NCBI RefSeq assembly: GCF_008801915.1
Contig: NZ_VZOV01000001.1
Span: forward strand, 124,001 to 188,000
DNA from: Cupriavidus gilardii
GTDB taxonomy: Bacteria; Pseudomonadota; Gammaproteobacteria; Burkholderiales; Burkholderiaceae
Length of the DNA stretch: 64,000 nt
Reading direction: 5' to 3'
The notes under the pieces are model-generated. The model saw nothing but the letters and a program-made list of their open reading frames with translations, had not been told where the DNA came from and did not search any database. The translations under genes and the position numbers were made by a program. This document shows, one piece after another, positions 15,561 to 20,466 of the stretch (its first letter is position 1; each line of letters begins with the position of its first letter).

Positions 15561-15670
15561 TTCGTGTCTTAAAATGCACAGAACCGGGTTTGCCACCGCT
15601 GGCAGCGGCGGCAATCGGGCCGATACTTGCTGGAAGACCTGTCAGGTCGCAAACCATTGAGGAGTGCGTC

Positions 15671-17011
15671 ATGAGAAGGGTTCGCCTTGTCATCGTGCTG
15701 GGTGCCGTCACGCTGCTGGTCGGCGGGTGCTTTCTGCTGGGCATGGGTGACCGCGCCACGCTGACGGTGGCGCAGGGCACCGGTCCGTCGCCGACCCTGC
15801 CGCCGCCGAACAAGACGCTGCTGCCGACCGTGGACATCGCACCGGCGATCGGCTGGCCGGCCGGCGCCCGGCCGACACCCGCGCCGGGGCTTGCAGTGAC
15901 GGCCTTCGCCGATGGGCTCGATCATCCGCGCTGGCTCTACGTGCTGCCCAACGGCGACGTGCTGGTGGCCGAGTCCAATGCACCGCCCAAGCCGGAATCG
16001 GGCAAGGGCATCCGCGATTGGGTCATGAAGCTGGTGATGAAGCGGGCCGGCGCCGGCACGCCCAGCGCCAACCGCATCACGCTGCTGCGCGATACCGACC
16101 GCGACGGCGTCGCGGACAAGCGCTCGGTGTTCCTGCAGGGCCTGAACTCGCCGTTCGGCATGGTGCTGGTCGGCAACGACTTCTATGTCGCCAATGCCGA
16201 TGCGCTGATGCGCTTTCGCTATCGCCCCGGCGCCGACCGTATCGACGAACCCGGCGTCAAGGTCGTGGATCTGCCCGCCGGCATCAACCACCACTGGACC
16301 AAGAACGTGATCGCCAGCCACGACGGCCGCAAGCTCTACATCACGGTCGGCTCCAACAGCAACGTCGGCGAGAAGGGCATGGAGATCGAACAGGGGCGCG
16401 CCGCGATCTGGGAGCTCGATCGCGCCAGCGGCAAGATGCGGCTGTATGCGACCGGCCTGCGCAATCCGAACGGACTGGCCTGGGAACCCGTGACCGGCCA
16501 GCTGTGGACCGCGGTCAACGAGCGTGACGAAATCGGCAGCGACCTTGTTCCGGACTACATCACCGCGGTGCGCGATGGCGGCTTCTATGGCTGGCCATAC
16601 AGCTACTGGGGCCAGCACGTCGACGTACGGGTCAAGCCGCAGCGGCCCGAACTGGTGGCCACCGCGCTGGTCCCCGACTATGCGCTCGGTCCGCACACCG
16701 CATCGCTGGGAATCACGTTTGCCGACGGGCTACGCTGGCCCGAGCCGTTCCGCGAAGGCCTGTTCGTCGGCCAGCATGGCTCGTGGAACCGCAAGCCCAA
16801 GAGCGGCTACAAGGTGATCTTCGTCCCGTTCCGCGGCGGCGTGCCCAAAGGCGAGCCGATCGATGTGCTGACCGGCTTTCTCGATGCTTCGGAGCATGCC
16901 CATGGCCGCCCGGTCGACGTCAAGGACGATCGCCGCGGCGGACTGCTGGTGACCGACGATGTCGGCAACGTGGTCTGGCGCGTCACCGCGATGACGGCAA
17001 GACGCCGATGA
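15671..17011 (+). CDS. PQQ-dependent sugar (sorbosone-type) dehydrogenase lipoprotein
   Basis: This 446-residue six-bladed beta-propeller dehydrogenase belongs to the soluble glucose/sorbosone dehydrogenase class. The lipobox is LVGGC with the acylated Cys at residue 20, so it is an envelope-anchored lipoprotein. Family landmarks are [87 protein letters not shown] and [22 protein letters not shown]. The ATG at 15671 has a GAGGAG site. Its stop overlaps the next gene's ATG (ATGA, 17008-17011). The neighbour is a PQQ receptor, which supports PQQ as the cofactor. The sugar substrate is not known. Confidence 0.87.
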
Positions 17012-19134
17012 GGAGCGGTGCAGCGGCATGGGCGGCCGGTGTCTTGCTGCCGCTGTCGGGATGGGCCGGTGCACAGCATGCGCCCGATGCGCCGGCACCG
17101 GCCGCCGAGCGCGCGCTGGCGCCGGTGGTCGTGACCGCCACGCGCGTCGATGCCCCGGTGTTCGATACCCCTGCATCGGCCGACGTGGTTTCGGGCGGCG
17201 CGCTGCGCGACGACAGGCCGCAGATCAATCTGAGCGAAGGGCTCGGCGCCGTGCCGGGCCTGCTGGCCAAGGACCGGCACAACTACGCGCAGGACCTGCA
17301 GTTGTCGATCCGGGGCTTCGGTGCGCGTTCGAGCTTTGGCGTGCGCGGCCTGCGGCTGTATGTCGACGGCATTCCCGCGACGATGCCAGACGGGCAGGGG
17401 CAGACCTCGAATATCGACATCGCGTCGATCGATCGCGTCGAGGTATTGCGCGGCCCCGCCTCGGCGCTGTACGGCAACGCATCGGGCGGTGTGATCCAGG
17501 TCTGGACCGAGCCTGGTGCGCGGCCGCCGCTCGTCGAAGGCAGCGTCGGCGCCGGCAGCTATGGCACGTGGCGCTATGGCCTGAAGGCCAGCGGCGCGCC
17601 CGCGCAAGGGGAGCCGGGCCTGGATTATCTGGTCAGCGCCTCGCGTTTCACCACCGAGGGATATCGCGACCACAGCGCGGCGCGCAAGAACCTTGGCAAT
17701 GCGCGGCTGACGTGGCGACCCGATGCCGACAGCAGCTGGACGCTGGTGGCCAATGCGGTCGAGCTGAGCGCGCAGGACCCGCTCGGGCTGACACGGGCGC
17801 AGTTCGACGGCGCGCCGCGCTCGGCGCCGCTGGCCGAACAGTTCGATACGCGCAAGACGGTGCAGCAGGCGCAGGGCGGCCTGCGTCACGAACGCCGGAT
17901 CGACGCCGACAACACGCTGATGGCGATGATCTACTACGGGCGGCGAGAAACCCGCCAGTTCCTGTCGATCCCGCCCGCGGCGCAACGCAGCCCGCTGTCG
18001 GCCGGCGGTGTCATCGATCTGGCCCGCGACTACGGCGGCGCGGACCTGCGCTGGACGCACCGTGGCCAAATTGGCCGCATGCCGCTGACGCTGATCGGAG
18101 GGCTCGCCTACGACTCGATGGAGGAAAGGCGCCGCGGCTACGAGAACTTCATCGGCAGCACGGAACAGCCGGTGCTCGGCGAGCAGGGCAGCCTGCGGCG
18201 CGACGAGCGCAATACCGTCTGGAATTTCGATCAGTATCTGCAGGCTTCGCTGGACCCGAGCCCGCGCTGGACCGTCGAAGCGGGATTGCGCCACAGCACG
18301 GTGCGCTTCTCGTCGAGCGATCGCTATATCGTCGGCGCCAATGGCGACGACAGCGGCTCGGTACGTTACGACAAATGGTTGCCGGTCGGTGCGGTGCGCT
18401 ATCGCGCCAGCGAATCGCTGAATCTGTATGCGACCGCGGGACGCGGCTTCGAAACGCCAACGCTGAACGAGATCTCGTATCGGCCCGACGGTTCGGCGGG
18501 CCTGAATTTCGCGCTGCGCCCGGCCACCAGCACCTCGGTGGAGATCGGCGCCAAGCACAGGCTTGCCGGCGGCCTGCTGACGGCGGCGCTGTTCCAGACC
18601 CGCACCGATCAGGAGATCGTCACCGCCACCAGCAGCGGCGGCCGGGCCAGCTATCGCAATGCCGGCCGCACGCTGCGCCAAGGCGTGGAACTGGGCTGGA
18701 GCGGCGCGCTGCGGCGGCATTGGCAGGCGCAGCTAGCGTACAGCTATCTGGATGCGACCTTCCGCGACACGGTGCCGCCCGGCATCGTCGCCGGCAACCG
18801 TCTGCCCGGCACCGCGCGCCACGCTGTCTATGGATCGCTCGCCTGGGCCCCGCCGCGCGGCTGGCGCGCCGGCATCGATCTGCGCTACCTGAGCGCCGTG
18901 CCGGTCGACGATCGCAACAGCGATCGCGCGCCCGGCTATTTCGTGACCGGCATCCACGCCGGCTACACCATGCCCGTCGGCCGCTGGACCCTCAATGCGT
19001 TTGCGCGGATCGACAATCTGTTCGATCGCCGCTATGCGGGATCGGTGATCGTCAACGATGGAAATGGGCGCTATTTCGAGCCGGCGGCCGGCCGCAATGC
19101 GTTTGCCGGCGTATCGCTGTCGTATGCGTTCTGA
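17008..19134 (+). CDS. pqqU: TonB-dependent PQQ receptor, PqqU (YncD) family
   Basis: This 708-residue outer-membrane receptor has a signal peptide ending near GWAGAQ and a TonB box APVVVTATR. Long near-identical stretches to the E. coli YncD/PqqU plug and barrel are visible: [51 protein letters not shown] and [12 protein letters not shown]. Others are [59 protein letters not shown] and [16 protein letters not shown]. PqqU imports pyrroloquinoline quinone. The start codon overlaps the stop of the PQQ-type dehydrogenase, so uptake of the cofactor and its user are translationally coupled. Family membership is firm; the ligand is inferred from homology and context. Confidence 0.9.
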
Positions 19135-19296: not shown

Positions 19297-20466
19297 ATGA
19301 GAACCAATTTCAAATACCGGGGGCTTGCATTCGGCGTCGCTGCTTCCGCTGCAATCCTGGCCGCCTGCGGTGGCGGCGGCGATGACGATGGCGGCGGCAC
19401 CGGTACGCTCAGCGTGTCGATGACCGATGCGCCGGCCTGCGGCTTCGACCATGTCTTCGTCACCGTCGACAAGATCCGCGTCCATACCAGCGCCAACGCC
19501 GAGGATGGCACCGGCGGCTGGGCCGAGATCGATGTCAATCCCTCCCGCCGCATCGATCTGCTGTCGCTGCAGAACGGCACGCTGACCAAGCTGGGCCAGA
19601 CCGTGCTGCCGGCCGGCCAGTATCAGCAGGTCCGCCTCGTGCTCGATCGCAATACCGGCAACTCGCTGGCCAATTCGGTGGTGCCGACCGGCGGCGCCGA
19701 ACAGCCGCTCGATACGCCGAGCGCCACGCAAAGCGGGTACAAGATCATCCGTCCGTTCACCGTGCAGCGCGACACGCTGGTCGACCTGGTGCTGGACTTC
19801 GACGCGTGCCGCTCGATCGTGCAGCGGGGCAACGGCTCCTATGCGCTGAAGCCGGTGGTGACCGCGGTGCCGCTGGTGGTCAGCGGCGCGATCCAGGGCT
19901 ACGTTTCGCCGGCGCAGGCCGGCGCCACCGTCTATGCCCAGCAGAATGGCGTGACCATCAAGGGTACGCTGGCCGACAGCAATGGCGCCTTCACGCTGTC
20001 GCCGCTGCTGCGCAGCAGCGATGCGGGCAACTACAGCGTCGTGGTGGTGCAGAACGATCGTGCGACCGGCGTGATCCAGAACGTGCCGGTCACCGCGCAG
20101 GCCACCACCACGGTGTCGACCTCGGCGGCGCCGATCGCGCTGCCGGCCTCGCCGATGCGCCGGATCACGGGCGCGGTGCTGCCCGCCTCGGCGCAGGCCT
20201 TCGTGCAGGCGAAGCAGAATGTCGCCGGCGCTCCGATCGAAGTGGCCGTCGCCAATGCGAACTTCGATACAGGCGCCTATCAGCTGAACGTGCCGGCCGC
20301 CGCCCCGCTGGTGGGGACCTATCAGCCGACGCTGCCGATCGCGCTGAGCGCGGATGCCGCCGCGGCAGGCAGGTACACTGTCACCGCAACATCGGTCACT
20401 GGCGCCACGCTGAGCACCGAGCGCGACGTCTCGGCAGGCGATGCGACGGCGAACTTCCAGTTCTGA
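19297..20466 (+). CDS. DUF4382 domain lipoprotein
   Basis: This 389-residue secreted lipoprotein has a lipobox LAAC (Cys at about 24) followed by a Gly/Asp spacer. The DUF4382 domain covers about residues 35-190 (GTLSVSMTDAPACGFDHVFVTVDKIRVH, RIDLLSLQNGTL, LPAGQYQQVRLVLD, LVLDFDACRSIV). Two or three Ig/carboxypeptidase-regulatory-like repeats follow (SGAIQGYVSPAQAGATVYAQ..., TGAVLPASAQAFVQAK). A strong GGAGAGGG site stands before the ATG at 19297. Its function is unknown in all relatives; surface adhesion or ligand binding is conceivable. A small lipoprotein follows 36 bp downstream, probably in the same transcript. Confidence 0.85.
   Translation: MRTNFKYRGLAFGVAASAAILAACGGGGDDDGGGTGTLSVSMTDAPACGFDHVFVTVDKIRVHTSANAEDGTGGWAEIDVNPSRRIDLLSLQNGTLTKLGQTVLPAGQYQQVRLVLDRNTGNSLANSVVPTGGAEQPLDTPSATQSGYKIIRPFTVQRDTLVDLVLDFDACRSIVQRGNGSYALKPVVTAVPLVVSGAIQGYVSPAQAGATVYAQQNGVTIKGTLADSNGAFTLSPLLRSSDAGNYSVVVVQNDRATGVIQNVPVTAQATTTVSTSAAPIALPASPMRRITGAVLPASAQAFVQAKQNVAGAPIEVAVANANFDTGAYQLNVPAAAPLVGTYQPTLPIALSADAAAAGRYTVTATSVTGATLSTERDVSAGDATANFQF

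Follow-up and report, generated by a model that had tools for sequence, protein, structure and literature searches.

Recognition of the TonB-dependent PQQ receptor PqqU in a 2025 survey (PMC12124388) relied on Y, F or W at position 99 (E. coli numbering) together with R304 and R365. In some PqqU groups that survey detected no PQQ synthesis and no PQQ enzyme, the Nitrosomonadaceae (n = 40) being one example. Its authors suggest that a PQQ enzyme was overlooked by their own search, which employed three Pfam models (PF01011, PF13360 and PF13570) alongside a profile taken from Diamond et al. (PMC12124388). GSDH, PF07995, aldose and YliI are not mentioned in the main text of the survey, which does describe four Burkholderiales genomes where pqqU is syntenic with synthesis genes. 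On the enzyme side, PQQ and calcium in the AA12 domain of CcPDH from Coprinopsis are contacted by R273, H363, R430, N431, D451, H539, H560, W563, N564 and R621 (PMC6881789). Of these, W563 and N564 make contact through their main-chain amides; S449 provides a further main-chain contact, and His363 is the counterpart of the catalytic His144 in sGDH (PMC6881789). The AA12 enzyme of Trichoderma is PQQ-dependent according to the title of PMC6881810.

The window analysed here is a 64,000-nucleotide stretch of a Cupriavidus gilardii contig (NZ_VZOV01000001.1, positions 124,001 to 188,000), and the gene pair described below lies on its plus strand. The first gene (15671..17011) encodes P0001, an AA12-like PQQ-type dehydrogenase of the GSDH family (446 aa), assigned by Pfam and by a PDB profile match to 6jt5 (CcPDH); AGGAG at 15660..15664, read from the sequence, is its likely ribosome-binding site. 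The second gene (17008..19134) encodes P0002, a TonB-dependent PQQ receptor (708 aa), assigned to PqqU by Pfam, NCBIfam and a residue signature. As a sequence-only reading of this DNA had stated, the enzyme stop (TGA) and the receptor start (ATG) lie in a common ATGA, at 17008..17011. The overlap is conserved: an in-frame ATGA is found in the six other genomes of a 60-genome genus sample that carry a close receptor (73–92% identical to P0002) and in Noviherbaspirillum massiliense (L123; L, G and C numbers are our labels for loci, genomes and contigs), with alternative start codons possible in some of these genomes. Upstream, the pair is flanked by a SnoaL-like protein on the opposite strand; downstream, about 160 bases past the receptor, a DUF4382 protein is encoded on the same strand. 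The latter (window 19297-20463) has a weak carboxypeptidase-regulatory-like match. At L229, too, a gene on the receptor's strand comes next (405 aa). Scans for promoters and terminators near the pair gave scores close to the shuffled means.

P0002 contains a TonB plug (PF07715) and a beta-barrel (PF00593), both above the Pfam cut-off. The long blocks nearly identical to E. coli YncD/PqqU that had been noticed earlier are indeed present, at an identity of 52.3%, and a phmmer search of the PDB gave E values of 1.7e-232 to 6v81 and 1.8e-232 to 9c4o. PqqU is also the best NCBIfam model, with 950 bits against 206 for the next family; this score is below the 1200-bit cut-off of NF041535 (PqqU), which is an annotation rule and not a biological feature. 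The missed equivalog cut-off, together with the observation that overall identity is a poor guide to the substrates of TonB-dependent receptors (PMC12124388), would favour a receptor that takes up some other ligand and merely resembles PqqU. The ligand site argues against this. The E. coli numbering of PMC12124388 agrees with chain 6v81 at all 11 residues tried, and in that numbering P0002 has Q84, F99, Q121, K274, R304, Q308, L310, R365, N477, Y481 and R536. At ten of the 11 PQQ-site positions P0002 has the E. coli residue or an accepted substitute; the exception is leucine for Q310, a position where the Q310A variant of E. coli PqqU supports growth like wild type (PMC12124388). Since F99, R304 and R365 are present, P0002 is a PqqU by the rule of that survey, and K274 and R536 are kept as well. 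In P0002 itself the site corresponds to F110 (Y99 of E. coli), K283, R313, R375 and R546, with a codon span of 17335..18645. Given this site and a lead of 744 bits for the PqqU model, uptake of a different ligand is very unlikely. We note that three PqqU-like receptors from outside the Burkholderiales (L236, L238 and L248) depart from the signature at R304 and have E in place of K274; E at position 274 has been suggested to permit metal co-transport (PMC12124388).

P0001 is above the Pfam cut-offs for GSDH and DUF7133, and the 8-blade models PF01011, PF13360 and PF13570 gave no match to it at E 0.1. Its N-terminus resembles a lipoprotein signal, with Cys20 (15728..15730) in a lipobox-like VGGC. 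The enzymes of L121, L123, L226, L232, L233 and L234 have such a cysteine too, and that of L165 has none. Searched as a single sequence, P0001 shows weak likeness to a number of PQQ enzymes, led by CcPDH and a Thermus enzyme, which tie at E 1.5e-06. A profile (A2) of 29 relatives, comprising the window enzyme, its own paralogue and enzymes found beside PqqU, matches 6jt5 best in the PDB (E 2.1e-18), followed by Trichoderma AA12. An AlphaFold model from a five-sequence alignment (pLDDT 60.2, pTM 0.69) is usable for the fold and not for the ligand pocket, the loops of which are partly at pLDDT <50; a single-sequence model was discarded (pLDDT 37.6). In fold comparison AA12 chains take ranks 1–4 (Z 34.5–35.6, partly tied, rmsd 2.5–2.8 over 327–332 residues), with Z 35.6 for 6jt5, 29.9 for Acinetobacter glucose dehydrogenase and 28.1 for E. 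coli Asd/YliI. Foldseek also places AA12 at ranks 1–4.

All ten side chains matching the CcPDH PQQ/Ca contacts are kept in P0001 (R87, H208, R264, N265, D286, H342, H369, W372, N373 and R413; codon span 15929..16909). The full set occurs in 25 of the 30 rows of the family alignment, and five rows have K or R at H560; L229 is omitted from this alignment, as are L218 and L252, which are weak matches. Trichoderma AA12 is without several of the ten residues in the same alignment, thus the set is typical of AA12 enzymes and not obligatory. Might P0001 instead be a calcium propeller of the lactonase-like, SMP-30-like or NHL-like kind, acting on the product of another PQQ enzyme? Such propellers align well too (Z about 24–26), DUF7133 is also called by Pfam and the confidence of the model is middling (pLDDT 60). 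They are outranked by AA12 and by the other PQQ sugar dehydrogenases (Z about 27–30), each of the ten side chains of the CcPDH PQQ/Ca site is retained, and no 8-blade PQQ enzyme that could be the source of the product was found in the genome, among the matches listed. We consider the calcium propeller quite unlikely, and the case for P0001 as a predicted PQQ-dependent enzyme is strong. In the earlier label of PQQ-type sugar dehydrogenase, the PQQ-type part agrees with the 10/10 ligand residues. By profile and fold the nearest enzymes are AA12 and not the Acinetobacter-type soluble glucose dehydrogenase, TIGR03606 (glucose/sorbosone PQQ dehydrogenase) gives 22.2 bits on P0001 against a cut-off of 434.55, and the name “sugar dehydrogenase” is guessed on the basis of the fold. 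A viral scan for AA12-like genes returned one locus.

The statement that no pqq synthesis genes are seen in the window also fits the searches of the whole genome, an assembly of 5.79 Mb in 115 contigs with an estimated completeness of 100%. Whole-genome searches for PqqC and PqqD gave no matches, and PqqE has only relatives below the cut-off (51.8 bits vs 381). Since these searches detected no synthesis genes, any PQQ that the organism uses must come from outside. An 8-blade PQQ dehydrogenase was likewise not found in the genome at E 1e-15 (among the matches listed), using a model that does detect the control E. coli. Two AA12-like genes are present, the window enzyme and an unlinked one on contig C2 (near 135618-136658; L021 1-3699). 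The second enzyme is about 31% identical to P0001, keeps the ten PQQ/Ca residues and stands alone. One or both of these enzymes are the candidate PQQ users of the genome.

The gene pair is probably a respiratory unit that scavenges PQQ. TonB-powered PqqU would bring free external PQQ into the periplasm, and the cofactor would there fill the apo-form of the co-encoded enzyme, a calcium-dependent AA12-type six-blade quinoprotein and predicted lipoprotein. The loaded quinoprotein would then oxidise a substrate, probably sugar-like, and pass the electrons to the respiratory chain. Elsewhere in the Burkholderiales the unit would take the form of a cassette in which a c-type cytochrome joins the AA12-like enzyme and PqqU. 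The two genes, their overlap, the ligand residues of both proteins, the lack of detected PQQ synthesis genes and the recurrent linkage are established at the level of sequence. The self-contained scavenging module of the sequence-only reading is supported in part, by the PqqU signature, the full PQQ/Ca site, the overlap, the failure to find synthesis genes and the recurrent pairing; its further element, service to one enzyme alone, is put in question by the second AA12-like gene on contig C2. That gene, unlinked and with the same ligand residues, is also what one would expect if PqqU imports PQQ mainly for the second AA12-like enzyme or for a missed PQQ enzyme, the operon being incidental.

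In the genus sample 51 of the 60 genomes have a receptor match at 1e-100. Close receptors (P0002 or ≥73% identical) have the enzyme directly upstream, with the ATGA overlap, in seven out of seven cases. The remaining 44 receptors are 44–48% identical to P0002, and the PQQ signature is kept in the 13 that were fetched. A further 42 genomes have an enzyme 66–72% identical to P0001 located apart from pqqU; there is a PqqU match elsewhere (44–48% identical to P0002) in 36 of these and no match at 1e-100 in six. Linkage is therefore not required. We note that the genus (L008-L020) has two PqqU lineages, a linked type (73–92%) and an unlinked type (44–48%), with PQQ residues in both where fetched.

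The order-level sample comprised 300 genomes, 64 of which have a PqqU match at 1e-150; removing three of the window's genus leaves 61. An AA12-like gene lies within 1.31 kb of pqqU in 20 of the 61, compared with a chance expectation of 0.23 within 6 kb if placement is assumed to be uniform. The 20 genomes cover nine family codes, and the AA12-like gene is on the same strand as pqqU in 15 and on the opposite strand in five. One of them, G254 (L218), was scored as linked from a match to just a 57-position enzyme piece. The same locus has an internal stop in the receptor match besides the short enzyme piece and is possibly a decaying or misassembled cassette. As a control, the BtuB model gave 106 matches in 57 of the 61 genomes (105 places, 41 of them short, one being G340's own PqqU), and no AA12-like gene lies within 6 kb of any of them. 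On a FastTree phylogeny of PqqU the linkage label requires 17 changes, at least 12 of them forced by starred branches, hence linkage has been gained or lost many times. The tree has 88 rows; it includes four linked named loci and omits 76 unlinked named ones, L218 and receptors under 560 bits. The absence of AA12 linkage in 41 of the 61 genomes fits an incidental operon. Against this, the seven close genus relatives and Noviherbaspirillum all preserve the overlap and the order of the genes, and the linkage greatly exceeds what uniform placement predicts and recurs across the tree. An incidental operon is thus unlikely, and we retain the scavenging unit as the preferred reading.

Among the best 80 named loci, many of which are from Achromobacter, Variovorax and Enterobacterales, at least four have the enzyme in the flanking DNA retrieved, which reached up to 10 kb (two Polaromonas loci, one from a lichen betaproteobacterium and one from Noviherbaspirillum); as some named loci are short contigs, 4/80 is a lower bound. 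One of 29 other gammaproteobacterial loci is linked, through a weak match. Linkage is rare outside part of the Burkholderiales. Homologues of the enzyme (71–74% DNA identity) are carried on Azospirillum and Sinorhizobium replicons, and Rhizobium replicons have them too. The match covers the enzyme only, so these enzymes evidently persist without a linked PqqU. In Fisher tests over the 61 genomes, which ignore relatedness, linkage was compared with the lack of pqqC (18/44 vs 2/17, p 0.036) and with the lack of an 8-blade enzyme among the matches listed (13/29 vs 7/32, p 0.10).

What adjoins pqqU was classified at 63 order-level loci outside the genus. An AA12-like gene is the neighbour at 20, pqqC lies within 8 kb at 10 and an 8-blade enzyme lies within 6 kb at nine or more (seven located by coordinates and two membrane glucose dehydrogenases by protein scan), with no overlap among the classes found. 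The neighbour scan covered 75 of 88 proteins and reached 24 of the 26 loci that still lacked a PQQ neighbour at that stage, and 8-blade matches were taken as listed, so the 24 loci left without any are an upper bound. The two membrane-bound PQQ glucose dehydrogenases beside pqqU (L166:3455-5923 and L175:3487-5862, family f4) score above the TIGR03074 cut-off. Proximity of pqqC and pqqU (L194 in G123, L205 in G198, L179 in G203, L208 in G207, L201 in G174, L217 in G148, L210 in G128, L189 in G132, L172 in G294 and L185 in G074) extends to more genomes than the four of PMC12124388.

A c-type cytochrome of one kind is found within 3 kb of PqqU at 16 of the 20 linked order-level loci versus 0 of the 45 unlinked ones. 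The gene often sits between enzyme and receptor. A single profile, seeded from linked loci, was used throughout, and the counts accordingly speak for that cytochrome kind only. The same profile matched none of the 29 other gammaproteobacterial loci and, among the 80 named loci, only the linked Polaromonas loci L116 and L120. Eight of these cytochromes (seven of the 16, and that of L120) were compared with Pfam and all eight match Cytochrom_C. The search found no such cytochrome next to the window pair, in its six close relatives, at L121, L123, L165 and L226 (which have P0001-like enzymes), or at L204 and L212. The enzymes of the cytochrome-less loci with P0001-like enzymes mostly have a lipoprotein-like signal, L165 being the exception. 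We infer that the unit may come in two builds, a soluble enzyme with a cytochrome, or a membrane-anchored enzyme with another electron acceptor.

These enzymes bear on the PqqU genomes reported to be without a PQQ enzyme. None of the 29 A2 enzymes matches PF01011, PF13360 or PF13570 at 1e-5 and all 29 match GSDH; the Pfam models of the survey thus miss these enzymes. Outside the genus, 29 of the 61 PqqU genomes are without an 8-blade enzyme (TIGR03075, E 1e-15, among the matches listed). pqqC is present in none of the 29, an AA12-like gene in 23, and this gene is linked within 6 kb in 13 (including the G254 fragment). No AA12-like gene was found in the other six (G064, G147, G158, G179, G223 and G308). 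With nine genus members added, six of them picked for having a close receptor, 34 of 70 are without an 8-blade enzyme (among the matches listed), 28 with an AA12-like gene and 18 linked. A family search for AMO, the marker sought for ammonia oxidisers, was positive in three of the 61 genomes, all of which have 8-blade enzymes. On balance we favour the view that PqqU has a major client in the AA12-like quinoproteins that has so far been overlooked, that the enzyme–(cytochrome c)–PqqU cassette runs respiratory oxidation on scavenged PQQ in organisms that do not make it, and that this explains many of the PqqU genomes reported as enzyme-less. The analysis suggests that bacterial AA12-like enzymes may often run on scavenged cofactor. 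The puzzle of PqqU genomes without a PQQ enzyme is now directly testable with two proteins.

A literature search, largely outside subscription journals, found no PqqU operon with a client enzyme. Each part belongs to a kind already known; the unit that they make up, and how widely it occurs, appear to be new. P0002 resembles E. coli PqqU (YncD; 6v81/9c4o) as a TonB-dependent receptor with a near full-length match and the PQQ-site residues, and differs from it in being 52% identical, with Y99 replaced by F and Q310 by L. The gene for P0002 overlaps the enzyme gene, and the comparison with E. coli PqqU concerns protein sequence only. P0001 shares with the CcPDH AA12 domain (6jt5, 6jwf) the six-blade propeller, the closest profile and fold and the ten PQQ/Ca side chains. 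With the Trichoderma AA12 enzyme (6h7t, 6i1q, 6i1t) it shares the six-blade propeller and a close profile and fold. Unlike either, it is bacterial, a predicted lipoprotein and without a haem domain, at about 20–24% identity. The soluble glucose dehydrogenase of Acinetobacter and E. coli Asd/YliI are also six-blade PQQ enzymes with the Arg-Asn pair and the catalytic His region, but have lower Z with the P0001 model, and TIGR03606 is far under its cut-off. The four Burkholderiales genomes of PMC12124388 likewise place PqqU beside PQQ genes; there PqqU is paired with synthesis genes, whereas the window pairs it with a client enzyme.
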